Position numbers and translations under genes: made by a program
The notes under the pieces: generated by a model
The model's input: only the letters and a program-made list of their open reading frames with translations
Database searches by the model: none
Told to the model about the DNA's origin: nothing
Shown here: positions 25,331-62,310 of the stretch, piece by piece
How positions within the stretch are numbered: position 1 is the first letter of the stretch
How the letters are laid out: every line of letters begins with the position of its first letter
From: an uncultured Lachnospiraceae bacterium
Lineage (GTDB): Bacteria; Bacillota; Clostridia; Lachnospirales; Lachnospiraceae
Direction of reading: 5' to 3'
Assembly: GCA_902780385.1 (NCBI GenBank)
Contig: CACZFF010000009.1
Span: 1-64,000, forward strand
Length of the DNA: 64,000 nucleotides

Positions 25331-25524
25331 TTCCGACATGCCGCTCGCAAGGGCGTCAACACATGCTCCGCATGTGTACGAGGAGAAATTCGCATTTGAA
25401 AACCTTACATATAAGGTCTTTGAAATTGGCGATTTCTCCGATGGGATCAGCGGAGCTTTGGGCCGTCCCGCGGCACAAAGCTCTGGAGTGAAAAATCTTG
25501 TATCGACAAGATTTTTCACTCTTT
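25331..25524 (-). repeat. dispersed structured element, copy A
   Basis: Lies downstream of the amylosucrase gene, and the TGA stop of that gene is inside the element's terminal hairpin. The 36-nt hairpin (25486-25521) has constant outer arms GAGTGAAAAA/TTTTTCACTC, inner arms TCTTGT/ACAAGA and loop ATCG. Next come AGCTTTG/CAAAGCT, GGAGAAA/TTTCTCC enclosing an AAGGT-type stem, and an extra ACACATGC/GCATGTGT stem not found in the other copies. Confidence 0.85.
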
Positions 25525-27729
25525 TGTCTTAAGAACAGAAGTTTTCTTCTCTGCAGGTGCCCCTGCTTCTGCAGCTGCTGCGGCCTCAGCTTCCTTCTGA
25601 GCCTTGGTCTTCCTGGGAGCGCGCTTTTTGGCTGCAGGCTTCTTCTCTTCTGCTTCGGCAGGGGCGTCTGCAGCTGCCTCTGCAGCCTCAGCTTCCTTCT
25701 GAGCCTTGGTCTTTCTGGCCGCGGGCTTCTTTGCAGCAGGCTTCTTGGCTGCGGGTTTCTTTGCAGCAGTCTTTTTTGCCTTGGTCCCGGCAGCCTTCTC
25801 TTCGGCTGCAGCCTCAGGTTCGGAAGGTTTCTCTGCGGTTACCGGCGCAGCGTCCGCTTTGCTCAGTTCCAGGGGCTTGTTGAAATCTGTCATCAGCCAT
25901 ACGAAATCGTATGCCGGAAGCGCGACAGCCTTGGCCTCGCGGGATTCTCCGGTGATGATGTCATGATAGTCTTCGGATTCGTTGATCCATGCGATCTCAT
26001 CTTCCTTGCTGAAGTTGAAGAGAGCGATGAGCTTCTGTCCCTTATAGTAGCGGCCGATGCCGAGGATGTGGTCATTGTAGGGCTCGACGATCCATGTGTC
26101 GGCCTCATTGTCAAAGACCTCGTACTTGGCGCGGACGATCTCGAGGACGCGCAGGGCGTTAAAGATCCTGCCTTCGCGTGTGGAGAGGTCATTTCTGAGA
26201 GCGACTTCATCCCAGTTGAGATCGCCGCGGTGCAGATAACGGCTGTCGTCCCATTTCAGAGGATCTTCGTGGTAGGTGTAGTCGTTTTTCTGGCCGATCT
26301 CATCACCGCTGTAAAGCACGGGAATGCCGCTCTGGGTGAAGAGGAAGGCGTGCAGCATGATATCCAGGCGGATGGCGCGGTCAAGCTTGTATTCGTCCTT
26401 CTCGTACTCGGCAGCTTCGATGCCGCACAGGGATGCGGTTGTGCCGCACAGACGGGCGTCACCCAGGCGGGGATCGTCATTGTAGAGCTCGCCGCGGGCA
26501 TCGCTGTTATAGCCCTTGCCGGTCAGGTAGTCATTGAGGTATTTCTTGTGGGCGACTTCTTCCATTCCGAACTGTTTGAGGAAGTTGTAATCCAGGCCCC
26601 AGCCGATATCGTCGTGGCAGCGCAGGTAGTTCAGGAAGGTGTAGTCATGAGGCAGCGCAAAGACAGCTTCCATCTGATGACGGAGCAGGCGCACATCGTG
26701 AGTAGCCACGGTATGCCAGGTGCTGGCCATGGTCGTGACGTTGTAGAGCATGTGGCATTCGGGCTTCTCGATCGTTCCGAAATAAGGCACGACCTTGGAG
26801 GGCTCCATGACGACTTCGCCCAGAAGCAGGGTGCCGGGGCAGACGACCTCGGTGGCCATGCGCATCAGGCGGACCAGCGTGTGGACCTGAGGCAGGTTGC
26901 GGCAGTCGGTGCCCAGTTCTTTCCAGATATAGGGCGTTGCATCCAGACGGATGATATCGACACCGTGGTTGCACAGGTTGAGCATGTCAGCGGTCATATC
27001 GTTGAAGACGACCGGATTTGCGTAGTTCAGATCCCACTGATAAGGATAGAAGGTGGTCATGACGACCTTGCCTGCCTCTTCGCACCAGGAGAAGTTTCCG
27101 GGCGCGGTCTGCGGGAATACCTGGGGGACGGTCTTCTCAAATTCGCTGGGAATCGTCCAGTCATCGTAGAAGAAATATCTGTCCTGATATTCCTTCTCAC
27201 CGGCGCGGGCACGCTTTGCCCACTCGTGGTCTTCGCTGGTGTGGTTCATGACGAAGTCCAGGCAGACACACATGCCGCGCTTGTGGCACTCATCGCCGAG
27301 CTCAGCAAGATCTTCCATCGTGCCGAGGGTGGGCTGTACTTTGCGGAAATTCGCGACCGCGTAACCGCCGTCGGACCGTCCGGCAGGGCTCTCCAGCAGA
27401 GGCATAAGGTGGACGTAGTTGAGTCCGCACTCCTGCAGATAATCCAGATGCGACTTGACACCCTGGAGAGTACCAGCGAAGCAGTTGGTATACATGAGCA
27501 TTCCCAGCATCTCGTTGCCCTTATACCACTCCGGCACTTCCTCACGCATCTGGTCCCACTGCTTCAAAGCTGTTGATCGCTGTGAATAATACTCATACAG
27601 CATATCGCAGAAATAAGAAAATGCCTGCTGATCATTGTGGTAGAGCTCGGCATAGAGCCATTTGAGCTCGTCATAATGCTTCTCCAGACGTTTTATAAAC
27701 TCCGGCTCCCAGTTTTTTTCTTCAAACAT
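25516..27729 (-). CDS. amylosucrase-like GH13 subfamily 4 enzyme with a Lys/Ala/Pro-rich tail
   Basis: Amylosucrases use sucrose as donor to build alpha-1,4-glucan and release fructose; relatives are sucrose hydrolases. Alignment from memory with the Neisseria enzyme is collinear through HLMPL, SDGGYAV, MNHTSEDHEWA, QWDLNY and the GDARLCGTTASL stretch. Catalytic residues are Asp263 (GVDIIRLDA), Glu305 (LLGEVV) and Asp373 (CHDDIGW). No signal peptide. Residues from about 625 are a tail rich in Lys/Ala/Pro (KKPAAKKPAAKKPAARK, KAQKEAEAA twice) like histone H1; amylosucrases normally end near 630-650. GAGGAGG lies 9 nt before the ATG. Confidence 0.88.
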   Translation of the reverse strand: MFEEKNWEPEFIKRLEKHYDELKWLYAELYHNDQQAFSYFCDMLYEYYSQRSTALKQWDQMREEVPEWYKGNEMLGMLMYTNCFAGTLQGVKSHLDYLQECGLNYVHLMPLLESPAGRSDGGYAVANFRKVQPTLGTMEDLAELGDECHKRGMCVCLDFVMNHTSEDHEWAKRARAGEKEYQDRYFFYDDWTIPSEFEKTVPQVFPQTAPGNFSWCEEAGKVVMTTFYPYQWDLNYANPVVFNDMTADMLNLCNHGVDIIRLDATPYIWKELGTDCRNLPQVHTLVRLMRMATEVVCPGTLLLGEVVMEPSKVVPYFGTIEKPECHMLYNVTTMASTWHTVATHDVRLLRHQMEAVFALPHDYTFLNYLRCHDDIGWGLDYNFLKQFGMEEVAHKKYLNDYLTGKGYNSDARGELYNDDPRLGDARLCGTTASLCGIEAAEYEKDEYKLDRAIRLDIMLHAFLFTQSGIPVLYSGDEIGQKNDYTYHEDPLKWDDSRYLHRGDLNWDEVALRNDLSTREGRIFNALRVLEIVRAKYEVFDNEADTWIVEPYNDHILGIGRYYKGQKLIALFNFSKEDEIAWINESEDYHDIITGESREAKAVALPAYDFVWLMTDFNKPLELSKADAAPVTAEKPSEPEAAAEEKAAGTKAKKTAAKKPAAKKPAAKKPAARKTKAQKEAEAAEAAADAPAEAEEKKPAAKKRAPRKTKAQKEAEAAAAAEAGAPAEKKTSVLKTKE

Positions 27730-27855
27730 GAAACGCTACCTCCTCTTTGGGGTCTACATTTACCGAATCGACCATAGTCCGGTTCTTCACAGCGCTTGTT
27801 TCCCGCCTGGTGCAGGGCAGATCTGAATAAGAAAAACAAACTGCCCTTTTCCGGT

Positions 27856-27870
27856 TTGTAATCGATTTCA
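27856..27870. promoter_or_regulatory. cre/LacI-type operator at the amylosucrase start site
   Basis: TTGTAATCGATTTCA fully matches the cre consensus and is near-palindromic around ATCGAT. It starts 11 nt downstream of the -10 box, the same geometry as at the PTS gene. Confidence 0.75.
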
Positions 27871-27881
27871 CAATTACATCC

Positions 27882-27910
27882 ATTATAAAAAATTTATAAA
27901 CTTTCCGCAA
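27882..27910 (-). promoter_or_regulatory. sigma-A promoter of the amylosucrase gene
   Basis: TTGCGG (27905-27910) and TATAAT (27882-27887) are spaced by 17 nt. The leader is about 145 nt and includes the operator. Confidence 0.75.
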
Positions 27911-28002
27911 TCTGCAAAGCAATGAACTTAAGGGTGTTTTTTTGTTGAATGTGCACAAATTTGAAGATAAATATACATTTTTTTGGTATCTATCAATAAA
28001 AA

Positions 28003-28036
28003 AGGCACCTCCGGGATCCTTCCCGGAAAGGTGCCG
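28003..28036 (-). terminator. terminator of the neopullulanase-like gene
   Basis: On the minus strand GGCACCTTTCCGGG pairs with CCCGGAGGTGCC and is followed by TTTTTTATTG. Confidence 0.9.
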
Positions 28037-28048
28037 CTCTTCTTTCAT

Positions 28049-28163
28049 TGTCTCATCCGGATCATGGTCAGCCCCGGACTGTCTTCTGTCTCGTCCGGAT
28101 CATGGTCAGCCCCGGACTGTCTTTTGTCTCGTCCGGACCATGATCGATCCCGGACTTCTATTT
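28049..28163. repeat. 38-bp tandem repeat, three copies
   Basis: The unit begins GTCTCATCCGGATCATGG and ends with CCCCGGACTGTCTTCT. The first two units are nearly identical and the third is degenerate (GTCCGGACCATGATCGATC). Each unit has TCCGG/CCGGA arms that can form a hairpin. It lies between the neopullulanase-like stop codon and its terminator. Confidence 0.85.
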
Positions 28164-30521
28164 TTCTGCTTTCCACCTCAGGAGGATGCCGGACTCCGGG
28201 GGCAGGGTCATGCGCAGTATGCCGTCGCTTGTGTAGACTGGCAGAAGCAGTCTGTCAGAAAGTGTGTCTTCCTGCTGCCTTGCGCCTGCCGGTATAAGGG
28301 CGGGATCCGCAGCGAAACCGCTGCGGTCCGTGCGCAGAAGACATTCGAACTCCACTCTGGGCGGAGCGCCGGCGCAGGTGATATCTGCACTGTAATCAAT
28401 CGGAATATGGTTGATGTTGACCAGCACAATAAATGTCTCCCGTCCGGATCCGGCCGTAGCTGCCGCGGTCCCGTTCTCTGCATCCTTTTTGTCAGCAGAT
28501 TTTCCGCGGGTAAACCTTGCGTAGGCCAGCACACCATCTGTGTCCGGAAGGCGGAGCAGAGATCCCCGCCGAAGGGCGCGGCTGGTATGGCGCAGGCCGG
28601 TCAGGACTTTGTGATAGAGGATCAGGGCGTGGTCTTCATGTCCCCAGGGATAGGTCCTGCGGTTATCGGGGTCTGTGAAGCCCCCCAGTCCTGCCTCATC
28701 ACCGTAGTAAATGGTCGGTGAGCCGGTCCAGGTCATCTGGATCAGGACCGCCTGGCGCATGGTCTGCATGTTGACGCCCTCAAGGGCCGCCTCCGTACTA
28801 AGGTTCTCCGCTCTCCCCACGATCCGGCTGGTCCGTGTGAGAAAGCGCGAGTGATCGTGATTGGAAAGCTCGTTCATGCCGATCCGCAGGGAGACATCCG
28901 GCATAGCCTTCTGGCTGTAGCAGAGGACATCGTGCCAGAAAGAGCCGGGATCGCCGAAGCGCTCCTCATCGAGGCTGTCGCTGTGTTTCTCCATTCCTGT
29001 GAGAAAATACGTGAGCGGTTCCATGAAGAACTCGTAATTCATGATGGTATCCCACTCGTCCCCCTGCAGCCATTTGTAGGAGTCCACATAGTTTTCCGCA
29101 ATGATGACGGCCTCCGGATTGGCCTCCTTGACCGCTTTCCGGAAGCGCTTCCAGAAACGGTGATTGAATTCCGAGGAATGTCCCACATCCGCGGCGACAT
29201 CCAGGCGCCAGCCATCGGCATTATAGGGCGGAGAGACCCACTTGCGTCCGATCTCCAGTATATACTCGCACAGTTCCTCCGAGGTCTCGTAGCTCAGCTT
29301 GGGAAGTGTGAAGAAGCCCCACCAGGACTCAAAAGAATCGTTGGACGGCCATTTATCCTTTTCAAACCGGAAATAGTTCACATAGGGCGATTTTTTCGAT
29401 GCGAAGGATCCTTTTTTGCTGCCTGGCAGCTGTTCATAGATCTTCTCCGCGTCCAGCCAGCGGTGGAAGGAGCCGCAGTGGTTGAATACGCCGTCCAGAA
29501 TAACGCGGATCCCGTGTCTGTGAGCCTTGTCCACCAGCTTCGCGAACAGGCGGTCACTGGCCTCCAGGTTGGCGGGATCTGTCACTCGACAGAGATAACG
29601 GGAAGCCTGCCGGTTGGTGCGGCGGCCGATGGTGAGATCTTCTTCCCGCACGGACTCAAAGCCCCGGGTCGCATCCGGCCACAGCACTTCACCCGGAGAT
29701 CGTCCCGACAGAGGAATCCGCACCTTTCTGCCCCGGGCTGCTGTCTTTGCGGCATCCGGGCTGTTCCCTGTATTTTTTGCGCTGTTGATGCCGGCGCGGA
29801 GGCGAAAGAGCAGTTCTCCCTTATCGTGAACGATCTTCCCGAAATGGGGATCGATATGCTCATAATCCTGCGTATCGTATTTATGGCTGGAGGGCGAGAG
29901 AAAAACCGGATTGAGATAAATGGCTTCCACCCCCAGTTCCTGAAGATAATCCAGTCTGTCGATCACTCCCTGCAGGTCCCCGCCGTAAAATTCGCGGTAG
30001 CCGTTGGAAGTCGGGGGCTGATCCCAGTCCCAGACGCCGATGGAAGGCTTGCCCATATAGCTGTATTCGCCGGTCAGCACATCATTGGAGGTGTCCCCGT
30101 TGCTGAAGCGGTCAACGAAGATCTGGTACATCACCGCGCCCTCAGCCCATGCAGGCGGATGGAATCCCGGAATGATGTGCCACCAGTCCGCCGCCCGGAG
30201 CATATTTCTCATCCCGCGGCGGGTGTAATGGATCTTTCTCCCGTTGGAATAGATCTCAAAAATATAGCGGAGCGGTGTCGATGTCACCTCAAATTGAACT
30301 TCGTAATAATCAAAACACTCATCCGATTCCGCCTTGCGCATGCGCAGAAGTCTTTCCTCTGTCATGAGAAAACAGGTCTGCGCCGCCTCTTTTTCAACAC
30401 GGAGCCGTATGGTGACCTTTTCATAAAGATCCGGCTGGGAAGGTGTGACATAATCCTCTGTCGTATCGCTGAAAAAAGCGCTGTAGCCGAGGCCGTCCCG
30501 GTAATTCCCGTCGTATAACAT
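28158..30521 (-). CDS. neopullulanase / cyclomaltodextrinase-like GH13 enzyme
   Basis: Cytosolic alpha-glucan hydrolase, probably acting on maltodextrins or pullulan-type linkages. An N-terminal beta-sandwich (1-120) precedes the TIM barrel with MYQIFVDRFSNGD (131-143), Asp441 in DGWRLD, Glu476 in IIAENY and Asp556 in NHDHSRF. Residues 235-318 form an unusual basic insertion between barrel elements, with little family resemblance. The total of 787 residues is about 150 more than usual. GGAG lies 8 nt before the ATG. It could trim the glucan made by the amylosucrase-like enzyme. Confidence 0.87.
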   Translation of the reverse strand: MLYDGNYRDGLGYSAFFSDTTEDYVTPSQPDLYEKVTIRLRVEKEAAQTCFLMTEERLLRMRKAESDECFDYYEVQFEVTSTPLRYIFEIYSNGRKIHYTRRGMRNMLRAADWWHIIPGFHPPAWAEGAVMYQIFVDRFSNGDTSNDVLTGEYSYMGKPSIGVWDWDQPPTSNGYREFYGGDLQGVIDRLDYLQELGVEAIYLNPVFLSPSSHKYDTQDYEHIDPHFGKIVHDKGELLFRLRAGINSAKNTGNSPDAAKTAARGRKVRIPLSGRSPGEVLWPDATRGFESVREEDLTIGRRTNRQASRYLCRVTDPANLEASDRLFAKLVDKAHRHGIRVILDGVFNHCGSFHRWLDAEKIYEQLPGSKKGSFASKKSPYVNYFRFEKDKWPSNDSFESWWGFFTLPKLSYETSEELCEYILEIGRKWVSPPYNADGWRLDVAADVGHSSEFNHRFWKRFRKAVKEANPEAVIIAENYVDSYKWLQGDEWDTIMNYEFFMEPLTYFLTGMEKHSDSLDEERFGDPGSFWHDVLCYSQKAMPDVSLRIGMNELSNHDHSRFLTRTSRIVGRAENLSTEAALEGVNMQTMRQAVLIQMTWTGSPTIYYGDEAGLGGFTDPDNRRTYPWGHEDHALILYHKVLTGLRHTSRALRRGSLLRLPDTDGVLAYARFTRGKSADKKDAENGTAAATAGSGRETFIVLVNINHIPIDYSADITCAGAPPRVEFECLLRTDRSGFAADPALIPAGARQQEDTLSDRLLLPVYTSDGILRMTLPPESGILLRWKAEK

Positions 30522-30545
30522 CCCTTTATCTCCTGTTTTTCATTC

Positions 30546-30722
30546 TTCCGACCATGCCGCTCGCCAGAGCGGCCCCGAGGAGAAATACGCATTTCAAAGC
30601 CTTACGTATAAGGGCTTTGAAATTGGCGTTTTCTCCGATGGGATCAGCGGAGCTTTGGGCCGTCCCGCGGCACAAAGCTCTGGAGTGAAAAAAACGCTAT
30701 TGAGCGTTTTTTTCACTCTTTT
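30546..30722 (-). repeat. dispersed structured element, copy B
   Basis: Lies between ftsH and the neopullulanase-like gene. Hairpin at 30683-30718: outer arms GAGTGAAAAA/TTTTTCACTC, inner arms AACGCT/AGCGTT, loop ATTG. It also has AGCTTTG/CAAAGCT, GGAGAAA-CGC/GCG-TTTCTCC enclosing TTTCAAAGCC/GGCTTTGAAA, and GCCGCTC/GAGCGGC. Confidence 0.88.
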
Positions 30723-30796
30723 CGCACACCTGACTGTTTTCACAGAATCATGCGTACTGCAGGCTGACAGATCATGGGCCGCTGACTTAAATACAA

Positions 30797-30823
30797 AAGC
30801 GGCAGTTCCCGCCGGAACTGCCG
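30797..30823 (-). terminator. terminator of ftsH
   Basis: On the minus strand GCGGCAGTTCC pairs with GGAACTGCCGC and is followed by TTTTGTATTT. It lies between the ftsH stop and repeat copy B, so copy B is outside the ftsH transcript unless there is read-through. Confidence 0.85.
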
Positions 30824-30858
30824 CCTCAGTCATCTCAAAAAGTCCGATCCCCTTGTTT

Positions 30859-32718
30859 TCAAACTCCGGCAGGAGCATCTGCTGCCTGCAGAGACGGTTT
30901 CTCAAAGAGAGAATCAAACTCTTTTCCGGTCAGTTTTTCCTTCTCCATAAGGAGCGCAGCGGTGCGGTGAAGAACATCCATGTGGTCGGAAATAATTGCT
31001 TTTGCTTTTCCGTAACAATCGGAAATGATGGCGCGGACTTCCTTGTCGATCTCGCCCGCCATATATTCGCTGTTGCGCTTCTCATGACCGATATCGTAGC
31101 CGAGGAAAACATCCTCGCCGCCCTGCTCATAGTTGATGGTTCCGATGGAGGAGGACATGCCGTAGCGTGTCACCATCTGACGGGCAATGTTTGTCGCCTG
31201 TTTGATATCCTGGGAGGCACCGGTTGTGATATCATCGAGGACAAGCTCCTCCGCGATCCGGCCGCCCAGGCTGACCATGATCTCCTGGAGCATACGGCCG
31301 CGGGTATAGTACATCTCGTCGCGGTCAGGAAGAGGCATGGTATAGCCGCCCGCGCCGTTGCCGGTGGGAATGACGGAAATGGTATAGACATCGCCGACAT
31401 CCGGCAGCTCGTGGAAAAGAATGGCATGGCCTGTCTCGTGATAGGCGGTGATGCGCTTTTCTTTCTCGGAGATAATATGGCTCTTCTTTTCCGTGCCGAT
31501 GCCGATCTTAATGAATGCGTTCTTGATATCCGACTGGGTGATGAAGAGACGGTCTGCCTTTGCCGCCGCAATAGCTGCCTCATTGAGCAGATTTTCCAGG
31601 TCGGCGCCGGAAAAGCCCGCCGTAGTGCGCGCGATCTCTCCCAGATCCACGTCGTCGCCGAGGGGTTTGTTGGCTGCATGGACTTTCAGAATCTCCTCCC
31701 TGCCCTTTACATCGGGACGGCCCACGGAGACCTTGCGGTCAAAACGGCCGGGACGCAGGATGGCGGGATCGAGGACGTCGACGCGGTTGGTCGCGGCCAT
31801 GACAATGATACCCTCGTTTACACCGAATCCGTCCATCTCGACAAGCAGCTGGTTGAGGGTCTGCTCGCGCTCGTCATGGGAGCCGCCCAGGCCTGTGCCT
31901 CTGCGGCGCGCCACTGCATCGATCTCATCGATGAATACGATGCAGGGGGAATTCTTTTTGGCTTCTTCAAACATGTCGCGGACACGGGAAGCACCGACAC
32001 CGACGAACATTTCCACAAAGTCGGAACCTGAAATGCTGAAGAAAGGCACCTTTGCCTCTCCGGCAACTGCTCTCGCCAGGAGGGTCTTGCCGGTTCCGGG
32101 CGCGCCCTCGAGCAGGACGCCCTTGGGAATCCGTGCACCGACCTTGGTATATTTTGCGGGGCTGCGCAGGAAATCAATGATTTCCTCCAGATCGGATTTC
32201 TCCTCATCGAGACCTGCGACCTGTTTGAATGTCACATCCTCACCGGTGGAAAGCCGGGCCCGGCTCTTGCCGAAATTCATCATCTTGGCATTTCCGCCGC
32301 CCATGCCCTGTCCGGACATCAGATAGAAGAAGAGGAAACAGATAGCCATGACCAGGAGCATGGGGAGGACATTGGTCAGGAATGTGTTCTCCGCCGGAAT
32401 GTCCAGCACAACTGTGAGGGCACCGGCCTGGCGCGCCATATCCTCGACATCGGCGATCACCGTCGCGTAGAGGATCTTTTTGCCTCCGTCCTTGATCGTC
32501 ACTGTCGCGCAGCCGGTCATATTGTCCTTGTTGGGACTGATCTCTACCAGCTCCACCTGTCCTTCCTGTAAGTCCTTCGCAAACTGTTCCTTCGTATAAG
32601 CGGACTCACTCGAAGAAAATGAATTCCGCAGAAACGGAGAAAAGAAAGTGAAGAATAAAACTGCCATGACAAGCAGCCCCAGGTAATTGCCGCTGCCTCT
32701 TGTAGGTTTCTTTTCCAA
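30859..32718 (-). CDS. ftsH: ATP-dependent zinc metalloprotease FtsH
   Basis: Membrane-anchored AAA+ protease that degrades misfolded membrane and short-lived proteins. Two transmembrane segments (11-30 and 115-133) flank an extracytoplasmic domain. Walker A is GAPGTGKT (205-212), Walker B FIDEID, SRH region RPGRFD, and the zinc site HETGH lies near residue 430. At 619 residues it is complete. The start is a TTG with AGGAG 6 nt upstream; no ATG fits. It follows tilS and hpt, the order typical of Bacillota. Confidence 0.96.
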
Positions 32719-32773
32719 AACTAACTCCTAAAAATGCTCTCCTGAATACTATTCCGCCGCAGCCGGTTACTTT

Positions 32774-35038: not shown

Positions 35039-35058
35039 GATTACAGTCAGCTGCCCGA

Positions 35059-46654: not shown

Positions 46655-49609
<2,955 letters not shown>

Positions 49610-49619
49610 ATTCATTCTT

Positions 49620-49764
49620 TCCGACCATGCCGCTCGTAAGAGCGGCAGCCTGAGGCGTTTTCGCTTGCGCGAAAACGGTGAAGGATCAGCAGAGCTTTGG
49701 GCCGCCTCGCGGCACAAAGCTCTGAGAGCGAAAAATCTTGTATCAACAAGATTTTTCACTCTTT
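49620..49764 (-). repeat. dispersed structured element, copy C (short variant)
   Basis: Hairpin 49726-49761 has inner arms TCTTGT/ACAAGA, loop ATCA, and one mismatch in the outer arm (GAGCG). The GGAGAAA stem module of other copies is replaced by GTTTTCGC/GCGAAAAC. The AGCTTTG/CAAAGCT and GCCGCTC/GAGCGGC-type stems remain. Its left end supplies the uvrA ribosome binding site. Confidence 0.85.
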
Positions 49765-49940
49765 CCGACCATGCCGCTCGTAAGAGCGGCCCCGAGGAGA
49801 AATACGCATTTCAAAGCCTTACGTATAAGGGCTTTGAAATTGGCGTTTTCTCCGATGGGATCAGCGGAGCTTTGGGCCGTCTCGCGGCACAAAGCTCTGA
49901 GAGTGAAAAATATCGTATCGACGATATTTTTCACTCTTTT
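49759..49940 (-). repeat. dispersed structured element, copy D
   Basis: Full-length copy head-to-tail with copy C, sharing the junction CACTCTTTCCGACC. Hairpin 49901-49936: outer arms GAGTGAAAAA/TTTTTCACTC, inner arms TATCGT/ACGATA, loop ATCG. The internal stems match copy B almost base for base. Confidence 0.88.
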
Positions 49941-49977
49941 CTACCCGTATTTCGCATACAGGTTCTATATATATATA

Positions 49978-52149
49978 TCACTTTTTCGTCATGCGCTCAG
50001 TCCTGCCGGAGCTCTTTCTTCGGGCGCCGCGCTTTGCGCTGCGCTCGGCGCTGCGGACGGTGTCGTGCATGCTGGCGGAAGGCGAGTCCCCGGGGACGGT
50101 TCTGTCCGACCCGTCAGAAGATCCGGCAGAAAATCCGGCAGATCCCGCCGCGGCGGAAATACCGTTTTCGACTTCCAGAAGGTGCTTTTTGAGTTCCACC
50201 ATGCGGTCACGAAGCTCTGCGGCGGCCTCGAAGTTGAGGTCCGCGGCAGCCCTGCGCATCTGTTTTTCGACATCGGCGATGAGTTTTGTCAGCTCCTTCG
50301 CATCCATGGACTCGGGGTCCTTTTCGAAGCGGACCTCTTCTTTGGAGATCTCCTTTGAGATGGAAATGAGGTCGCGGACAGCCTTGCGGATGGTCTGGGG
50401 CGTGATTCCGTGCTCCTCATTGTATTTCTGCTGGATGGCGCGGCGGCGCTCGGTCTCCCCGATGGCGCGGCGCATGGAATCGGTCATATTGTCGGCGTAC
50501 ATGATGACATGGCCGTCGGCATTTCTCGCGGCGCGGCCTATGGTCTGGACGAGGGACGTCTCGGACCGCAGGAAGCCCTCCTTGTCGGCGTCCAGGATGG
50601 CGACAAGGGAAATCTCGGGGATGTCCAGGCCTTCTCTGAGCAGGTTGATGCCGACAAGTACATCAAAGACATCCAGGCGCATGTCGCGGATGATCTGCGA
50701 GCGCTCCAGGGTGTCGATGTCGGAGTGGAGGTATTTGACACGGATGCCGGCCTCAGCCAGGTAGTCCGTCAGATCCTCCGCCATTTTCTTGGTCAGAGTG
50801 GTGATCAGGACCTTATTTTTGTTGTCCGTCTCCTTGCGGATCTCGCCGATCAGATCATCGATCTGGCCCTCGACAGGGCGCACATCGATTTTGGGGTCCA
50901 GGAGGCCGGTCGGGCGGATGACCTGCTCGGTGCGCAGCAGCTCATGCTCTTCCTCGTAAGGGCCGGGCGTGGCGGAAACAAAGAGCATCTGGTCGATGTG
51001 GGTCTCAAATTCCGAAAATTCCAGCGGCCGGTTGTCCAGGGCGGAGGGCAGGCGGAAGCCGTAGCGGACCAGGGTCTCCTTGCGCGACCTGTCTCCGCGG
51101 TACATGGCCCCGATCTGGGGGATGGTCATATGGGATTCATCGATGATGATCAGGAAATCATTGTCGTAGAAATCCATGAGGGTCATGGGCGGCTCGCCGG
51201 CCTTCATGAAATTCAGATGGCGGGAGTAGTTCTCGATACCGGAGCAGAAGCCGGTCTCGCGCATCATCTCGACGTCGAAATTGGTGCGCTCGGCGATGCG
51301 CTGGGCCTCGAGGAGCATATCCTCTCCCTTGAAATATTTGACGCGTTCCCTGAGTTCCTCCTCGATATTGTCGCAGGCGGCGTTGATCTTCTCCTGGGGA
51401 ACAACGTAGTGGGAGGCGGGGTAGATCATCACATGCTCGAGCTGCTTGTGGACGCGGCCGGTCAGCTGGTCCACCTCGCAGATGCGGTCGATTTCATCGC
51501 CGAACCACTCGACACGGAGTATAAAGTCGCTGCCCTGGGCAGGGAAAATTTCCAGCGTGTCGCCGCGGACGCGGAAATTGGTGCGCTCCAGGGCCATGTC
51601 ATTGCGGGTATACTGAATGGCCACCAGCTCCTTCAATACCTCGTCGCGGTCCTTTTCCATGCCGGGGCGGAGGGAGATCGACATTCCCTTAAATTCGTCG
51701 GGACTGCCCAGGCCGTAAATGCAGGAGACAGATGCGACGACAATAACGTCCCTGCGCTCCGCCAGGGAAGCTGTCGCGGACAGGCGCAGCTTATCGATCT
51801 CGTCATTGATCATCGAGTCCTTGGCGATATAGGTGTCGCTCTGGGGAATATAGGCCTCGGGCTGGTAATAATCGTAATAGGACACAAAATATTCCACTGC
51901 GTTCTCAGGGAAAAATTCCTTCATCTCGCCGTAGAGCTGGCCTGCCAGTGTCTTGTTGTGGGAAATGATCAGCGTGGGCTTGTTCAGTGCCTGGATGACA
52001 TTGGCCATGGTAAAGGTTTTGCCCGAACCTGTTACGCCCAGCAGGGTCTCAAACTGATTTCCCTCTTTGAAGCCCCTGACCAGGTCCTCGATCGCCCCGG
52101 GCTGGTCTCCGGTCGGCACATATTCCGAATGGAGCACAAAATGATCCAT
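49978..52149 (-). CDS. uvrB: excinuclease ABC subunit B with an extended C terminus
   Basis: Helicase-like damage verifier that loads UvrC. Walker [11 protein letters not shown] lies near residue 40, the beta-hairpin [10 protein letters not shown] near 95, helicase motifs follow, and the UvrC-binding UVR motif ends near 660. About 60 further residues rich in Ser/Arg ([20 protein letters not shown] onward) exceed the family length; their DNA contains GGGGACGGTTCTGTCC, the core of the GGGACGGTTC repeats. ATG 52149 ([10 protein letters not shown]) has AGGAGAGG 5 nt upstream. A LexA box lies in its promoter region. Confidence 0.96.
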
Positions 52150-52242
52150 AGTATCCTCTCCTGATTCTGTCCTGTATCCCGGTGAGATCCCGCCCATAAA
52201 AGAGTAAGCGGATATCCTCGTGGAAAAACGCGGACAAATTAT

Positions 52243-53823: not shown

Positions 53824-53918
53824 CTTTCTCCTCTCAGTCTTCGATACCGTTCATACTTGCGGCCATGGACCTGTTCCCTTTGTGTTAGGCAAAGCAAATT
53901 CTCTTTGACATGAAAAAC

Positions 53919-53947: not shown

Positions 53948-54123
53948 AGACGAAGTCTCAAAAACACGATACGGATGCCGTCTTTATTTATGCCTGCTGC
54001 TTTTCATAGCGCGATAGAACTGCATCTGTCTTTCGTACTCCCCTTGTGTAAAGGCCAGACAGAAGGCTGACCGCATTCTGTCTGCACTTCAAATATGGAT
54101 ATTCAAACGCAATTGTCTGAGCA

Positions 54124-54903: not shown

Positions 54904-55093
54904 TTCATCCTCCTGTTGGCTGCAGTACTGACGCTGCTGATCGTTTTGAATGCAAGCAGGCTCATTTTCATTCCGAGCCATTGTTTATTGTAGCACAAAA
55001 CCCCGTGTGAGGCTCGTTACTTTTCCAAGTAACTGCATTTTTTTCAATAAAAATGTTCAATTCTAAAAACAAATTATCTGTTTAAAAAACAAA

Positions 55094-55927: not shown

Positions 55928-56077
55928 GAATACTATGTCCTTCCTTTATTGTCCCGGAGCATTGCTATTGTTTACCGTGCTTTACCGTAAACGGCAAAGT
56001 GTTTTTTATTATGCCGTTACAGCAACATACTTTCGGGTAATAGTCTTTCAAATAATAATCTTTCCGGTATTATCCTT

Positions 56078-57271: not shown

Positions 57272-57273
57272 GT

Positions 57274-58287
57274 TTATACCTCCTTCTGATTCATTTCCTT
57301 TTGGGCATATATAAAAAGCGTTTTATCCGCAGCTTCTCCTTCCTTTTCCGGAGTACAGCTTCCTGCGGGCACAAACCCCAGTTTCGTGAGCAGATGCTGC
57401 GAAGCGGCGTTGTCATTGCGCGCATCAGCCCGCACACATGTAAATCCCAGTTCCGTAAAACCATAACGCAGAAGCGCCCTGCTGACTTCCTCCGCAATTC
57501 CCTGTCCGCGCCATTTGGCCCCGACCAGAAACCCGAAATCCGCGTCAAGAGCTGAAAGTCCCAGTGCCTGTGCCTCCTGCTCCTGCCGGGACGTGATGGC
57601 GGAATAGCCGATCCGTCCGATCAGGACCTCCGGCTCATCCTTTAAAAAAACCGCCCAGTGGCCGAAGCCGTACAGGCCATAGATCCGCTCAATATAGGCT
57701 CTCAGAATCTCTCTTTCCCTGGCGCGGTCCGCAGAGGGAGGCTGGAGAAAGCGGCAGGCCTGAGCGTCATAGAGGGCATAGATCCCGTCCAGATCCTCTT
57801 CGGTAAACTCCCGTACAAGGCATCGCTTCGTCTCCAGGATCGTCCATGGAAGGCCTGCTGCCCGCTGATACATTTTGACATAGCTGTCCGCATCGACCAG
57901 ATCCGGCTCCTGCACGATATAAGGAGCTCCCGAAAAGCGCTCCGCGGAATTGTCCGCATGTGCATATCCTATTGCGTACGCTCCCTTTTCCAGAAGTTCC
58001 CGCAGGACATGGCCGCCCTCGCACAGAAAGAGCGTCTCCTCAATCCCGGGAGCACCCGCTGCTTTTCCGGCAGTTGGAAAAATCTGCTCCGCTGACGCAG
58101 CAGCATTCTCCGCTGAAAAAAGCACTTCCCGGGCAGCTGCAGCAGCAGCTTCCGCTGAATCCGCTGTCAGAATACCGCTGATCAATCCGGCTTCCCGGAG
58201 AGCTTCTGCCGTGCGGGTCATCTCGGCCGTCACTGCATCAGAGTGCACAGCCTTTGGGTTTTTGATCAAAAAAACTGCTTTCAACAT
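57274..58287 (-). CDS. GNAT acetyltransferase with an unknown N-terminal domain
   Basis: 337 residues. The C-terminal half (about 150-330) is a GNAT domain of the RimJ/RimL type (CLVREFTEEDLDGI at its start, RGQGIAEEVSRALLRYGF as acetyl-CoA loop, NDNAASQHLLTKLGF). The first 145 residues (KAVFLIKNPKAVHSD onward, with an Ala/Glu-rich stretch) resemble no family I can name. ATG 58287 (MLKAVFLIK) lacks a clear ribosome site and lies 7 nt after TATAAT, suggesting a leaderless or near-leaderless message. It precedes the aminotransferase, so it may act on the same metabolite. Confidence 0.8.
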   Translation of the reverse strand: MLKAVFLIKNPKAVHSDAVTAEMTRTAEALREAGLISGILTADSAEAAAAAAREVLFSAENAAASAEQIFPTAGKAAGAPGIEETLFLCEGGHVLRELLEKGAYAIGYAHADNSAERFSGAPYIVQEPDLVDADSYVKMYQRAAGLPWTILETKRCLVREFTEEDLDGIYALYDAQACRFLQPPSADRAREREILRAYIERIYGLYGFGHWAVFLKDEPEVLIGRIGYSAITSRQEQEAQALGLSALDADFGFLVGAKWRGQGIAEEVSRALLRYGFTELGFTCVRADARNDNAASQHLLTKLGFVPAGSCTPEKEGEAADKTLFIYAQKEMNQKEV

Positions 58288-58294
58288 AACAGCT

Positions 58295-58324
58295 ATTATA
58301 ACGACATAAATATATCGATGTAAA
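58295..58324 (-). promoter_or_regulatory. promoter abutting the GNAT gene start
   Basis: TTTACA (58319-58324) and TATAAT (58295-58300) have 18 nt between them, and AGCTGTT separates TATAAT from the ATG. Confidence 0.6.
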
Positions 58325-58363
58325 GTGGAAAACAATGCCCTTGCAGGACAAAACCGCCAAAAA

Positions 58364-58402
58364 GTTACAGTACACGCCCTATCGAGGGCGTGTACATGTA
58401 AC
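58364..58402. repeat. GTACACGCCC palindrome, copy 2
   Basis: The core TACACGCCCT/AGGGCGTGTA is flanked by GTTACA/TGTAAC, around loop ATCG. The core is shared with 39408-39442, but the outer flanks differ and are again matched. Confidence 0.8.
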
Positions 58403-58405
58403 GTC

Positions 58406-58485
58406 GCGAAAATCGCATTCCAATACGCTTCGCGCGCGATTTTCGCCGTTCAACTCGGGTTTTTCGCGAAAAGCGCGCGAAAAAC
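58406..58485. other. two further large palindromes
   Basis: GCGAAAATCGC (58406-58416) pairs with GCGATTTTCGC (58436-58446), and GTTTTTCGCG (58459-58468) with CGCGAAAAAC (58476-58485). Together with 58364-58402 this makes three adjacent hairpins with no gene, in a 657-bp gap. Confidence 0.65.
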
Positions 58486-58639
58486 ACTCGCGTTTCAGGT
58501 GGGTCTGTAACGCCCAAAAACTCTTATCTGCCCCGGTTCAGAAACGTAATCAACAGCATGTGAGAGCTCCCGAAACTTCCTGCAGTACTTGTTAAAAATT
58601 TGTTCATATTTTATTAAATGATTTTTAAATTGTTTCTCA

Positions 58640-58667
58640 TTGTCCGTCCATTTTTCATAAGTATACT
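58640..58667 (+). promoter_or_regulatory. promoter of the small RNA candidate
   Basis: TTGTCC (58640-58645) and TATACT (58662-58667) with a 16-nt spacer on the plus strand. Confidence 0.6.
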
Positions 58668-58673
58668 CTGTTT

Positions 58674-58798
58674 ATAAGCTGAACAGCGAAAAGCAGTACA
58701 GCTCAAAATGTCGCCAATGCAGCAGGCTTACGAATAACTTTTTCATAACTATGCCAGGTACGCAAGTACCTGGCATCCTCCCTTTTATGGGGGTTTTT
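58674..58798 (+). ncRNA. candidate small structured RNA, about 125 nt
   Basis: From the predicted start to the T-run the transcript has an AGCTG/CAGCT 5' stem, an 11-bp stem ATGCCAGGTAC/GTACCTGGCAT closed by a GCAA (GNRA) tetraloop (58751-58776), and a final CTCCC/GGGGG terminator stem followed by five T. No reading frame with a ribosome site is evident. It does not resemble tmRNA, 6S RNA, SRP RNA or a c-di-GMP riboswitch as I know them, and no plus-strand gene follows. It is a candidate only. Confidence 0.5.
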
Positions 58799-58818
58799 AT
58801 ATTTTACAGTAAAAATAT

Positions 58819-58853
58819 CGCGTCCGGGGATTGCTCCTCCGGACGCGTTTTTG
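58819..58853. terminator. bidirectional terminator after the HPr-like gene
   Basis: CGCGTCCGG pairs with CCGGACGCG; T-runs follow on the plus strand (TTTTTGTTTT) and on the minus strand (ATATTTTTA). It closes the hprK-murB-rapZ-whiA-HPr-like run from the right. Confidence 0.85.
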
Positions 58854-58944
58854 TTTTCAAATATTCAATTGTCCATCCCGCTTCTTTTCCGCACTGTATG
58901 CTGCAGTCAAAGCAGAATGTACCGGCCGGCCCGGGCGCCGGTCA

Positions 58945-59223
58945 TCAGACAGCTGCGCAGGCCTTTTTCTCTCCACAGCAGAGGAAAGCGGAAATCTCAT
59001 CCATAGCCCTGGCCTCATCGTCTCCATCAATCATAACCTCTATACTATCGCCGGACACAGCCTGAAGAGACATCATGCCCATGATACTCTTAGCATTTAC
59101 CTTCCTTGTACCATGTTCAAGATACACACGACTCTCGTACTTGCTCGCAACCTGTACCAGCTCTGCAATAGGACGGCCTTCCAGTCCCTGCGGCCGATTG
59201 ATCAAGATCGATTTCCTCAGCAT
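58945..59223 (-). CDS. crh: Crh-like HPr paralogue with Ser46 but no His15
   Basis: 92-residue HPr-fold protein. At position 15 the catalytic histidine is replaced by Glu (PQGLEGRP), while the HprK target region NAKSIMGMMSL with Ser46 is intact. Bacillus Crh has Gln15 and Ser46 and serves only as a CcpA co-repressor. The location after whiA is the same as for Bacillus crh. It cannot act as a PTS phosphocarrier through residue 15, but fits as the HprK substrate for catabolite control. AGGAG lies 6 nt before the ATG. The symbol is assigned by analogy; a C-terminal Cys/Lys-rich end (CCGEKKACAAV) is unusual. Confidence 0.85.
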   Translation of the reverse strand: MLRKSILINRPQGLEGRPIAELVQVASKYESRVYLEHGTRKVNAKSIMGMMSLQAVSGDSIEVMIDGDDEARAMDEISAFLCCGEKKACAAV

Positions 59224-59288
59224 ACAAAACTCCTATCCTGCGGTTTCCCGCTGTAATCATTAAATTGATCCTGTTCATTCCGGAATCC

Positions 59289-60296
59289 TCAGGAAGGATT
59301 TTTTTCCTCCCGTGCTTTCTGCGCGAGCGCGGACAGTTTCCGGAGTCGATGATTCATGCCCGATCTTCCGACCGGTGGTTTGGCGAGTTCTCCCAGTTCC
59401 GTCAAAGAAGCACCGGAGTGCTCTGTACGAAGATCTGCTGCTTCGCGGAGCGGGGCAGGAAGTGTCTGTAAAATACCGTTCTCACGAAGATAACGGATAT
59501 CCTCCATCTGTCTGCCCGCGGATTTGACGGTCTTGCCGATATTGGCGGTCTCGCAGTTGACACGACGGTTTACGGAGTTTCTAACCTCTTTGAGAATGCG
59601 CGCATTCTCTGTCGCCATCAGGCCGACAGAAGTTTCCATCAGATGCAGAAGTGTGACAATATCCTCGGAGTCCTTTACATAGACAACAAAGTACCTTTTG
59701 CGGCGTGTCATCCCTGCGTGGATTCCGTGTCTGGAGAGCACCCCCTGCAGCTGCAGTGCCTGCGGCTCCGAAAAGCATCGGTATTCCAGATGATATCTCC
59801 TGACCGGGTCGTTCATAAACCCTGTGCACAAAAACATCTCCCGAAGATACGCTCTGCTCCTCTTCCCGCCGACAAGCTCCGGCTCCAGCGTCCCGTCCTG
59901 AATACGCAGCGTCCCGTCCCTGTTCAGAAAACGGAGCCTCCGCAGCAGATCTGTGATCTGCTCCGAAGCATCCAGCAACAGGTCCGGAGGAACTGCTTTT
60001 TCTCTGTTTGCGGGTGTCCCGGCACCTTCAGTCTGTGCTTCCGTCTTCATTTCAGTGAAAGACATCCACGAAGCCGGGAAACCAGAATTTATATTAACGT
60101 TTTTCTGAATTAAAGTAAAGCACTTTCTTAAGGCCAGAATATTGCCTGCGGAAAAATGCAGCCGGATCAAGCCGTCTTCCGATGTACTTAAGGTACAGAT
60201 ATTGGCAATGAGAGCCGCAAGGGCCGTATCCCTGTCCTGCCTCCCGGGCGGGATCAGTCGGGCCGCTTCCGCCCGCAGATTACCGGAAAAAGACAT
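59289..60296 (-). CDS. whiA: WhiA-type DNA-binding regulator
   Basis: Conserved Gram-positive protein with a LAGLIDADG-like N-terminal part and a C-terminal helix-turn-helix; linked to cell division and chromosome segregation. Recognisable are ELVGGKRSRAYLREMFLCTGFMNDP, YHLEYR and the C-terminal NCETANIGKTVKSAGRQ and GELAKPPVGRSGMNHRLRKL stretches. A variable linker (about 80-105) is longer than usual. GGAGGTG lies 11 nt before the ATG. It follows rapZ, with the usual intervening glmR (yvcK) gene missing here. Confidence 0.95.
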   Translation of the reverse strand: MSFSGNLRAEAARLIPPGRQDRDTALAALIANICTLSTSEDGLIRLHFSAGNILALRKCFTLIQKNVNINSGFPASWMSFTEMKTEAQTEGAGTPANREKAVPPDLLLDASEQITDLLRRLRFLNRDGTLRIQDGTLEPELVGGKRSRAYLREMFLCTGFMNDPVRRYHLEYRCFSEPQALQLQGVLSRHGIHAGMTRRKRYFVVYVKDSEDIVTLLHLMETSVGLMATENARILKEVRNSVNRRVNCETANIGKTVKSAGRQMEDIRYLRENGILQTLPAPLREAADLRTEHSGASLTELGELAKPPVGRSGMNHRLRKLSALAQKAREEKNPS

Positions 60297-60359
60297 CTTG
60301 GCAGCTTCACCTCCATGTACAGTTCTTTACAAGTACCTATGTCTGAAAACAGTTTTCTT

Positions 60360-61217
60360 CTACTTTTTTGAATCCCTGTGGTAGATCTTGAGCGCGTAAT
60401 CCCCATGGTCCTTAAGGTCCTCATACAGGCAGTTGGCAATAGTCACGCTGCGGTGCTGACCGCCCGTACAGCCGATGGCGATCACCAGCTGGTTTTTTCC
60501 CTCATCGACATAGTAGGGGATCAGGAAGCGGATCATGCTGCTCAGCATTTTCCTGAATTCGGTCGTCTGGGGAAAAGAGAGCACATAATCCGAGACAGGC
60601 TTGTCATTGCCTGTCAGGTTCTTGAGCTCATCGATGTAATAAGGATTGGGCAGAAAACGGACATCAAAGACAAGATCCGCATCGTGGGGGATCCCGTTTT
60701 TGAAGCCGAAAGACATGACCGAAACGATCAGGGAATTGTATTTCTCGTCGTCGACAAAAACCCTGATCAGTTCCTCGCGGAGTTCTCGCACAAGCAGACT
60801 GGACGTATCAAAAACATAGTCCGCCTTGGATTTGATCTGGCGCAGGATCTCGCGCTCCTTGCGGATCCCGTCCTCCACACGGCCCTGGGGCTCGCAGGGA
60901 TGGGCGCGGCGAGTCTCTTTATAGCGCTTGATCAGTGTGTCGTCACTGGCGTCCATGAACAGGATCTCATAATCATATCCCCTCTCGCGCAGCGCGGACA
61001 GATCTTCCTCCACATAGATAAAAGGACGGTCAGCGCGCACATCGAGTCCCAGAACAACCTTGTCTATGTTGCTGCCGGGCATGAAAACCAGTTCCATAAA
61101 TTTATCGATCAGGCGGACAGGCAGATTATCGACGCAGTAATATCCTCCGTCTTCGAGAATCTTGATCGCAGTTGCCTTTCCGCCGCCGCTCATTCCTGTC
61201 ACAACGACAAAACGCAT
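60360..61217 (-). CDS. rapZ: RNase adapter / nucleotide-binding protein RapZ (YvcJ)
   Basis: P-loop protein; in enterobacteria RapZ senses glucosamine-6-phosphate, in Bacillus YvcJ hydrolyses nucleotides and affects competence. The Walker A reads GMSGGGKA (8-15), where the family has GMSGAGKS: the Ser/Thr that coordinates Mg is Ala. The C-terminal domain has the conserved GCTGGQHRSV near residue 245. ATG 61217 has GGAGGGGG upstream. 285 residues, normal size. It lies between murB and whiA. Confidence 0.94.
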   Translation of the reverse strand: MRFVVVTGMSGGGKATAIKILEDGGYYCVDNLPVRLIDKFMELVFMPGSNIDKVVLGLDVRADRPFIYVEEDLSALRERGYDYEILFMDASDDTLIKRYKETRRAHPCEPQGRVEDGIRKEREILRQIKSKADYVFDTSSLLVRELREELIRVFVDDEKYNSLIVSVMSFGFKNGIPHDADLVFDVRFLPNPYYIDELKNLTGNDKPVSDYVLSFPQTTEFRKMLSSMIRFLIPYYVDEGKNQLVIAIGCTGGQHRSVTIANCLYEDLKDHGDYALKIYHRDSKK

Positions 61218-61263
61218 ATTTCCCCCTCCATGCCAAACTCTTCCGGATTGCTCAGGTGCGGGC

Positions 61264-62241
61264 TCAGAATTCACCCAGGAAAATCACTTCACGCTCCAGC
61301 CTGACTCCTGTGTCTTCGAATACTTTTTTCTGGACATCACCGATCAGTTCCCGGATCTGTGCGGAAGTAGCTCCTCCCTTGTTGATGACAAAACCGCAGT
61401 GTTTCTCGGAGACCTGTGCTCCGCCCACACTGTAGCCGGCAAGGCCGGCGTCCATGATCAGCTTGCCTGCAAACATTCCCTCCGGCCGTTTGAATGTGCT
61501 GCCGGCACTGGGATATTCCAGGGGCTGTTTGGAACGGCGCCTTTCAGCCAGATCCGCGATCCTGGCGCGCACCTTCTCCGGATCTTCCGGCATCAGTTCA
61601 AACTGTGCCCGCAGAGCCACCGCATCGATGCTGCGCAGCACACTGGTCCTGTAGCCGAAGGCCATCTGTCTGCCGCTGTAGTCCCGGATGCTGCCGTCCG
61701 GCATCAGCAGACGCACCGAGCGTGTGACAAACCGGATCTCGCCGTCATAGGCGCCCGCATTCATCACCAGACCTCCTCCCACAGTGCCGGGAATACCAGC
61801 CGCAAATTCTAGACCGGTCAGGCCGTTTTCCATGGCTGCCAGTGCCGCCGCCTTGAGTGTGGCTCCGGCGCCGGCAGTGACGCAATTTCCCTCCACGCAG
61901 ACTCCGTCGAGAGGAAAATCCCCCTCCAAACCTGCAGACAGGTCCTGCGCACTCTGACTCCCCTCCGCGGAAGGGGCAGCCGCTGCGGTGACGATCACCC
62001 CCCGGTAGCCGCCGTCGCCGATCAGAAGATTTGTGCCTCTTCCCAGAAGGAAATACGGCTCTTCCCGTTCCCTGAGCAGCTTCAGGAGAGATGCCATTTC
62101 CTCTTCCGTCTTCACGACCGCAAGGACATCCGCCGGCCCGCCGGTCCGGAACGAACAGTGCCGGTCCATCGGTTCATTATAATAAATCTGCCCCTGGGGC
62201 AGAATCTGCTCCATTTCCTCCTGCAATGCTCTGTGAATCAC
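61264..62241 (-). CDS. murB: UDP-N-acetylenolpyruvoylglucosamine reductase
   Basis: NADPH-dependent flavoenzyme that makes UDP-MurNAc. FAD-binding stretch FLLGRGTNLLIGDGGYRGVIV, GIPGTVGGGLVMNAGAYDGEI, and the active-site Ser in YPSAGSTFKRPEG are present. GTG 62241 is chosen because GGAGG lies 7 nt upstream; a longer frame would read into the partial repeat copy E. 325 residues, type II enzyme size. It sits between hprK and rapZ. Confidence 0.95.
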   Translation of the reverse strand: MIHRALQEEMEQILPQGQIYYNEPMDRHCSFRTGGPADVLAVVKTEEEMASLLKLLREREEPYFLLGRGTNLLIGDGGYRGVIVTAAAAPSAEGSQSAQDLSAGLEGDFPLDGVCVEGNCVTAGAGATLKAAALAAMENGLTGLEFAAGIPGTVGGGLVMNAGAYDGEIRFVTRSVRLLMPDGSIRDYSGRQMAFGYRTSVLRSIDAVALRAQFELMPEDPEKVRARIADLAERRRSKQPLEYPSAGSTFKRPEGMFAGKLIMDAGLAGYSVGGAQVSEKHCGFVINKGGATSAQIRELIGDVQKKVFEDTGVRLEREVIFLGEF

Positions 62242-62255
62242 GTCTCCTCCTCCTT

Positions 62256-62310
62256 CGCGGCACAAACATCCGGAGCGAAAAATATTGCATCGGCAATATT
62301 TTTCACTCTT
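62256..62310 (-). repeat. dispersed structured element, copy E (truncated)
   Basis: Only the terminal hairpin and a CGCGGCACAAA fragment remain. Hairpin 62273-62308 has inner arms TATTGC/GCAATA, loop ATCG, and one outer mismatch (GAGCG). The hprK TGA stop is inside its outer arm. Confidence 0.85.

Follow-up and report, generated by a model that had tools for sequence, protein, structure and literature searches.

Miniature inverted-repeat transposable elements (MITEs) and palindrome-associated transposable elements (PATEs) derived from the IS200/IS605 family have subterminal hairpins, no inverted-repeat ends and a strand-specific fold, and the IS200/IS605 family is not known to make a target duplication. 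HEARO (IscB omega RNA) elements have a target preference for ATGA or GTGA. Pneumococcal BOX, RUP and SPRITE are small interspersed, highly base-paired, non-autonomous and parasitic-looking Firmicute repeats; BOX is modular, BOX and RUP have been tied to resident insertion sequence (IS) elements, BOX by the similarity of its terminal inverted repeats, and regions between convergent genes are enriched in all three families (PMC3049150). Two further papers describe the repetitive extragenic palindromes and bacterial interspersed mosaic elements (REP/BIME) as palindromic, extragenic, high-copy sequences of 20–40 bp with a GTAG or CGTC tag and a proposed movement by a Y1-type transposase (PMC3733652), and Clostridiales-1 RNA (RF01699) as a structured RNA of Clostridiales with unknown function (PMC2864571). 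Here we compare with these systems a dispersed hairpin element from an uncultured Lachnospiraceae bacterium (assembly GCA_902780385.1), five copies of which lie in a stretch of 64,000 nt of contig CACZFF010000009.1 (hereafter the window).

This element is real and better supported than first described; it is best filed as a small interspersed, non-autonomous repeat, unusual for its strand-specific fold with long-range pairing and for its position at ribosome-binding sites. Its repeats are dispersed and covary strongly, the strand opposite the flanking genes folds better, some sites are found empty in relatives, and in other genera the next start codon stands at a fixed distance. We consider it probable that this is a non-autonomous mobile element without coding function, which inserts into translation-initiation regions and provides a new Shine–Dalgarno sequence. 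Like BOX, it has modular internal units between fixed end units; unlike BOX, RUP and SPRITE, it lacks terminal inverted repeats, sits at gene starts and has covarying long-range pairing. Its ends, which were compared alone and with no search of an IS library, are not the inverted repeats of a classical MITE. It shares with REP/BIME a palindromic, extragenic and high-copy character, but is about 150 bp long, forms four helices and ends without a GTAG or CGTC tag. As a structured non-coding element whose flank includes RTGA it recalls HEARO, but no Rfam HEARO match was obtained in the window or in the loci searched. RF01699 does not match the element itself.

The original prediction described five copies, each with a terminal hairpin (here called D) of two 10-nt outer arms, two 6-nt inner arms and a loop. 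All five hairpins exist and each is exactly 36 nt long (Table 1). The inner arms TCTTGT (twice), AACGCT, TATCGT and TATTGC are fully complementary to their partners in every window copy, and all five copies lie between minus-strand genes in one shared orientation. The outer arms are as described in three copies; in the hairpins at 49726 and 62273 the 5' outer arm is GAGCGAAAAA and one outer pair is non-Watson–Crick. The further stems, which had been taken to be kept generally, are not all kept in the copies at 49617, 25331 and 62256. The copy at 49617 is without GGAGAAA/TTTCTCC and has another stem, GCGTTTTCGC / GCGAAAACGG, in its place; that at 25331 has an altered GCCGCTC hairpin and an extra insert; that at 62256 breaks off with only half of the next stem present. 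The upstream gene's stop codon falls within a hairpin arm (GAGTGA) at 25516 and 62303. The end of copy 3 toward uvrA reads CGGAAAGAATG on the gene strand and adjoins the uvrA start. Read on the gene strand, the modules follow in the order D, C (a GAGCTTTG- or GATGTTTG-like stem), B (several alternative stems), A (a hairpin) and CGGAAAG. The element ends that were compared read (A)GTGTGAAAAAT at 5' and CGGAATGG at 3' on the gene strand. Element length is mostly 130–190 bp, and the forms differ through swaps of modules, B and A being variable.

The genome, a 3.3-Mb metagenome-assembled genome (MAG) in which the window lies on contig C9, gave 66 blastn matches at E ≤ 0.01 with one copy as query, and a chance origin of the hairpins can therefore be dismissed. 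A covariance model of the hairpin (R1) gave 84 strand-matches at E ≤ 1, corresponding to 47 places, 36 of them at E ≤ 1.1 × 10−7; a few of the weakest places resemble ordinary terminators. The four inner-arm sequences of the window are indeed different and fully complementary, but they represent recurrent subfamilies in this genome and not independent changes in each copy. Over all loci compared, own and other, these are the commonest classes, with 20, 11, 11 and 10 distinct copies with loop CGAT. When inner-arm complementarity was checked across the genome and the genus, more classes appeared, and most were fully complementary; in congeners, ten less common classes are fully complementary, and some further copies have a single mismatch. 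The loop of D is kept as CGAT or TGAT. The class counts include eight loci judged to be chance pattern matches and left out of later context work, of which seven belong to named organisms outside the Firmicutes (a cyanobacterium, Actinobacteria, a Phycisphaerae MAG) and the last, L131, to a Candidatus Eisenbergiella MAG.

The compensatory change seen in the five window copies is strongly supported by a test of 31 diverse copies, controlled by shuffling and sliding. Of the 35 copies that remained once redundancy had been filtered out, the alignment (A3) uses 31 (L089, L122:5682, L124 and L145 were excluded); these 35 came from 136 copies by way of 88 complete ones and 68 of 122–146 nt. Over 38 pairs, 95.9% of 1140 cells were paired, versus 42.1–52.6% when the partner strand was slid by 1–3 columns, and both sides had changed at 23 of the 38 pairs. 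The covariation score was 0.392 versus 0.121 ± 0.009 after shuffling, and none of 500 shuffles reached it. Each of the five innermost pairs of the D inner arms had changed on both sides in 10–14 of the 31 copies. The outer arms of D vary across genera as well, mostly in step (GTGTG/CACAC, GTATG/CATAC, GATTG/CAATC), and some copies of genome G336 break this co-change.

The structure of the element is thus strongly supported, and it includes a covarying long-range interaction in which the C loop pairs with an arm of A. Six or more contiguous Watson–Crick pairs between the two were found in 70 of 83 distinct copies, versus a mean of 31.5 and a maximum of 43 in 500 permutations. A second alignment (A4) was assembled by hand from 15 copies, including one mosaic (L150); most belong to the GTCGAAGCGC type or its relatives. 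In this alignment 92.7% of cells were paired versus 28–47% when slid, and both sides had changed at four of ten pairs. Because the A arm also pairs within A, the long-range pairing may represent a pseudoknot or an alternative state.

The R1 model found the element in 17 of 61 genomes including its own, that is, in 15 of 36 congeners and in one of 24 genomes of other families. A survey of the order with a full model (R2, E ≤ 1 × 10−6) found it in at least 24 of 392 genomes including its own, at least 17 of 174 genera and two families; the best seven candidates per genome were scored, so that copy numbers are lower bounds and carriers may be missed. G336 has at least ten copies. Named genomes with the same hairpin pattern are mostly Lachnospiraceae MAGs, for example, RUG12263, RUG12648, RUG375 and RUG710. 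The statement that no known family fits was borne out, as neither the window nor 20 loci from other genera gave an Rfam match at the gathering threshold. At E ≤ 5, nine loci gave only a neighbouring Clostridiales-1 RNA and five weak matches under the gathering scores of their families, and the literature searched names no such element. The Clostridiales-1 RNA (RF01699, 113 bits; L089:1718-1885, minus strand) lies beside a copy of the element, on the opposite strand.

Two further accounts of the family were considered and rejected. As to carriage by phages, a set of viral contigs gave no match to the hairpin pattern; a looser end pattern matched nine viral contigs, and the full model at E ≤ 0.01 places the element in none of these. 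Annotated phages gave no match to a window copy, and plasmids gave none to a copy from another locus (L255). The latter does match three unverified faecal scaffolds labelled Bacteriophage sp. (MT836788.1, MT837007.1 and MT838414.1; L361–L363); two of these records hold bacterial chromosomal genes (enolase and class-V aminotransferase in one, Tex in the other), the third holds DUF6077 and MBOAT families, and in MT836788.1 the element is directly upstream of enolase. As to a coding function, a frame beginning at RTG (RTG AAA AA) is stop-free in 51 of the 88 copies from the genus and in 10 of 24 from other genera, but the translations examined are not conserved: they differ between element types and many end early.

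The position of the element relative to the following gene was analyzed at 28 loci of other genera from the order survey, taking as the gene the longest frame beginning within −3 to +40 of the model end. The set includes two orthologous loci (L274 and L275), one cut by a contig end (L281) and one with a frame of only 40 codons (L268). The next start codon was at +8 (GGAATGG) in 15 of the 28 loci and at +8 to +10 in 20. Under the same rule, 11,200 random positions in the same loci gave 2.1% and 6.2%, respectively. In G336, eight of nine further copies have ATG at +8; one of the nine (L336) is the same as L279 of the 28-locus set. The downstream genes in a sample of copies are unrelated to each other and include Exo_endo_phos, GatC, MntP, flavodoxin, UxaC, GtrA, PFK, a response regulator, MgsA, enolase, uvrA and murB.

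Gene context in the element's own genus was determined for 122 of 136 copies (six wrong-strand or duplicate entries and eight weak places of the own genome were excluded); gene calls came from a simple codon-usage heuristic, and four own-genome places without a parsable arm were omitted. The element shares the direction of both neighbouring genes in 77 copies and opposes both in 15; the neighbours are divergent in 11, convergent in five and undetermined in 14. The five convergent versus 77 co-directional copies, as raw counts with no all-intergenic baseline, differ from the preference of BOX. In 25 of 89 co-directional cases (7/25 own, 18/64 relatives), the GAGTGA of D is the exact end of the upstream gene. 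An oriented target, such as a ribosome-binding site, would explain the orientation of the element; it could also owe something to co-orientation with replication or to selection that keeps terminators out of operons.

The two strands of the element do not fold equally well. The strand opposite the flanking genes had the lower minimum free energy in 82 of 88 genus copies (84 with DNA parameters) and in 23 of 26 copies from other genera (25 with DNA parameters). G–U pairs numbered 64 on that strand versus 37 on the gene strand (p = 0.009, an optimistic value since the copies are related). The mismatches had the same leaning: in the genus 77 were G–A on the opposite strand versus six, and in other genera all 11 mismatches of the C–T/A–G kind were G–A on the opposite strand. 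Most transcription of the sites should come from the operons, which would speak against the mRNA as the molecule that folds.

Several observations make the element look mobile, namely, empty sites, tandem copies and the unrelated genes downstream. A copy in G336 (L257) lies in front of a flavodoxin gene, and the same junction is empty in G460. The left 512 bases are 99% identical between the two genomes, and the right part is about 90% identical. The empty site reads GGGGAGATTAGTGTGAAG and the filled site GGGGAGATTAGATTGAAAAAT ... CCGGAATGGGGGTTAGTGTGAAG. The element was therefore inserted between the Shine–Dalgarno sequence and the start codon, and its end gives a new G-rich stretch. Seven sites of G336 were searched in five genomes of its genus, and one (L333) was readable as empty across both flanks. 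At this junction, which we take from its sequence to be rpsP-khpA-like, four relatives are without the element. Two of the four have TGGAGGTGGATT-ATG where the carrier has TGGAGGTGGATT-[element]-GGATTGAAATG; the site is more diverged than the flavodoxin one. In the own genus, a congener with flanks 92–96% identical to those at C19:61736 lacks the copy, with a ragged right edge. The hprK–murB junction has no element in 17 congener loci, where the intergenic DNA is too diverged for exact ends.

The sequences on either side of the element also resemble each other. The six bases to the left matched those to the right better within copies than between copies (114 vs 94.5 ± 4.9; 0/2000 permutations), an excess found at one of six offsets tested; a version using the best offset gave 130 versus 111.3 (0/2000 permutations). 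The test used 29 of 37 copies from other genera (L256, L266 and L271–L275 have no clear end or arm; L279 is the same as L336). The similarity suggests a short, often imperfect target duplication, to which old tandem partners could have contributed.

These data are consistent with the following mechanism. A trans-acting factor would handle the folded single strand, which may be single-stranded DNA (ssDNA) or an RNA copy of that strand, and the strand would be inserted between a Shine–Dalgarno sequence and its start codon. The gene-facing end of the element has its own Shine–Dalgarno-like run (GGAATGGAGG; CGGAAAG in the own genus), so that the gene would keep a ribosome-binding site at normal spacing after insertion. 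Insertions rebuilt in this way would be almost neutral and would have a set orientation relative to transcription. In the own genus, a variant with a flank resembling AAGAGTGAAAAA has risen to high copy number, often at stop codons (GAGTGA), and forms head-to-tail tandems.

A number of results weigh against this interpretation. The start rule is much looser in the own genus, where co-directional copies have D a median of 213 nt away from the start of the next gene. Hairpin D has no G–U bias (8 vs 9), and the G–U difference in other genera (10 vs 7) is not significant. Fewer than six C-loop/A pairs were found in 13 of 83 copies, some of which are module mosaics. The G460/G336 site is without a perfect target duplication, the right side being GGGTT where AGATT is expected; at the rpsP-khpA-like junction, two of the four relatives match the left side of the carrier yet are without three bases before the start codon. 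Finally, neither an autonomous copy nor a mobilising gene was found. The own genome is without a REP-associated tyrosine transposase (RAYT), and its sole Y1 transposase sits in an IS605 element with different ends. A Y1 match (PF01797) is missing from 10 of 18 carriers of the same family elsewhere, and G336, despite its many copies, has neither Y1 nor reverse transcriptase. The mobiliser may have been lost, may be encoded by the host or may be of another kind.

One rival possibility is that the element is a PATE-like MITE of the IS200/IS605 (Y1/HUH) kind, moved by TnpA or RAYT acting on single-stranded hairpins. It has the subterminal hairpins on one strand, the strand-specific fold and the non-inverted ends of such elements; one end repeats a short sequence of the adjoining flank, and head-to-tail tandems occur. 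In the genus, RAYT matches were obtained in 19 of 37 genomes, and carriers other than the own genome have them more often (10 of 15, one a fragment) than the remaining congeners (9 of 21). In G013 (L219), four AAGAGTGA repeats, a motif of the element flank, stand just upstream of the RAYT gene, where a contig edge limits the view. All five carriers in the second family have a Y1 match (three of the five have reverse transcriptase). Nevertheless, in contrast to REP with its RAYT, the element is present in five congener carriers without RAYT (G017, G020, G026, G030 and G034) as well as in the own genome, and its richest congener, G009, has a fragment only; RAYT and the IS605 element were rejected as resident mobilisers, though not for every carrier, as most congener carriers have a RAYT match. 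Reverse transcriptase was likewise rejected: 9 of the 18 same-family carriers have no PF00078 match, and G178, G325 and G403 resemble G336 in having neither enzyme. The same-family carriers without Y1, these four among them, are 98–100% complete. Of 20 non-carriers, 9 are without Y1 and 5 without reverse transcriptase, so that carriage is associated with neither enzyme in this sample (uncorrected for phylogeny). The Y1 and RAYT loci scanned, a set to which the Y1 loci of the carriers elsewhere do not belong, show no complete hairpin D, and the RAYTs examined are mostly flanked by other repeats. Further departures from IS200/IS605-derived elements are the translation-initiation target and the flank similarity, which hints at a short target duplication. 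On balance we think a Y1-mobilised MITE unlikely.

Two explanations place the function in the transcript. The element could be a cis-regulatory RNA leader that hides or exposes the Shine–Dalgarno sequence of the next gene, with copies spread secondarily. The fixed start-codon spacing in other genera, the two alternative pairings of the A arm and the tandem copies would suit a leader, but the downstream genes have no common theme, the strand opposite the mRNA folds better and holds most of the G–A mismatches, and empty sites exist. We regard this as slightly less likely still. Least likely in our estimate is a REP/BIME-like or terminator-like role, in which D would terminate transcription or shield the 3' ends of mRNAs, the dispersal being a by-product. 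It would account for the frequent start of D at the upstream stop codon (the 25 of 89 cases above), and antisense copies leave a longer gap to the gene on the D side (median 333 nt, compared with 52 nt), as would be expected if D and the T's after it terminated transcripts running in that direction. A scan of 49400–50100, covering the uvrB–uvrA pair only, found no terminator, however, and the C-loop/A pairing, the B and C modules and the fixed start-codon spacing would be superfluous for such a role. A mobile repeat that enters translation-initiation regions thus remains our preferred interpretation. That it represents a new class of mobile element, one that moves in the form of a folded and knotted single strand (either ssDNA or an RNA copied from the non-coding strand), targets and rebuilds ribosome-binding sites and is moved by neither Y1/RAYT nor reverse transcriptase, is a more tentative proposal, which we would sooner doubt than accept at present.

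Table 1. Copies of the element and their hairpins in the window. The strand given is the best-folding one, opposite to the genes.
Feature	Position	Strand	Description	Setting
Copy 1	25331..25524	+	complete, A module altered	between alpha-amylase-family gene (25516-27729, minus) and LacI-family gene (24126-25115, minus)
Stem C of copy 1	25453..25483	+	GAGCTTTG ... CAAAGCTC	
Terminal hairpin D of copy 1	25486..25521	+	inner arm TCTTGT; TGA stop of upstream gene in complement of TTTTTCACTC	
Copy 2	30546..30722	+	complete: A, long B, C, D	between FtsH-like gene (AAA + Peptidase_M41, 30859-32718, minus) and alpha-amylase-family gene (28158-30521, minus)
Hairpin A of copy 2	30555..30573	+	TGCCGCTC ... 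GAGCGGC; TGCCGC also complementary to GCGGCA in stem C loop	
Terminal hairpin D of copy 2	30683..30718	+	inner arm AACGCT	
Copy 3	49617..49764	+	alternative B stem; first in head-to-tail pair	between uvrB (49978-52197, minus) and uvrA (minus)
Terminal hairpin D of copy 3	49726..49761	+	inner arm TCTTGT, outer arm GAGCGAAAAA	
Copy 4	49763..49940	+	complete; second in tandem pair	as copy 3
Terminal hairpin D of copy 4	49901..49936	+	inner arm TATCGT	
Copy 5	62256..62310	+	truncated: D and half of stem C	between hprK (62303-63253, minus) and murB (minus)
Terminal hairpin D of copy 5	62273..62308	+	inner arm TATTGC, outer arm GAGCGAAAAA; contains hprK stop codon	

Other repeats were observed along with the element. 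A separate dispersed repeat (GTGTCA...GGGACGGTTC / GAACCGTCCC...TGACAC and variants) is present in the window at 1548–1689 and 18384–18415; it also flanks several RAYT genes of congeners (L213, L218 and L208 flanks) and adjoins some truncated copies of the hairpin element. In G035 (L207), a RAYT gene is flanked by A-tract hairpins (GAAAAACGACC TCTG GGGTCGTTTTTC), which constitute another REP-like family shaped like hairpin D. Tandem 15-nt repeats (GCCAAAAACACTCCT-like units) at 15951–16120 of the window lie within a long open frame, which suggests a low-complexity repeat protein.

If our interpretation is correct, the element is a selfish one fitted to the ribosome-binding site, where insertion between the genes of an operon harms least, with a structure that has been kept in at least 17 of the genera sampled. 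The annotated starts of genes downstream of it may be displaced, and the expression of these genes could be altered. Identification of its mover would test for an unrecognised transposition mechanism in abundant gut bacteria.

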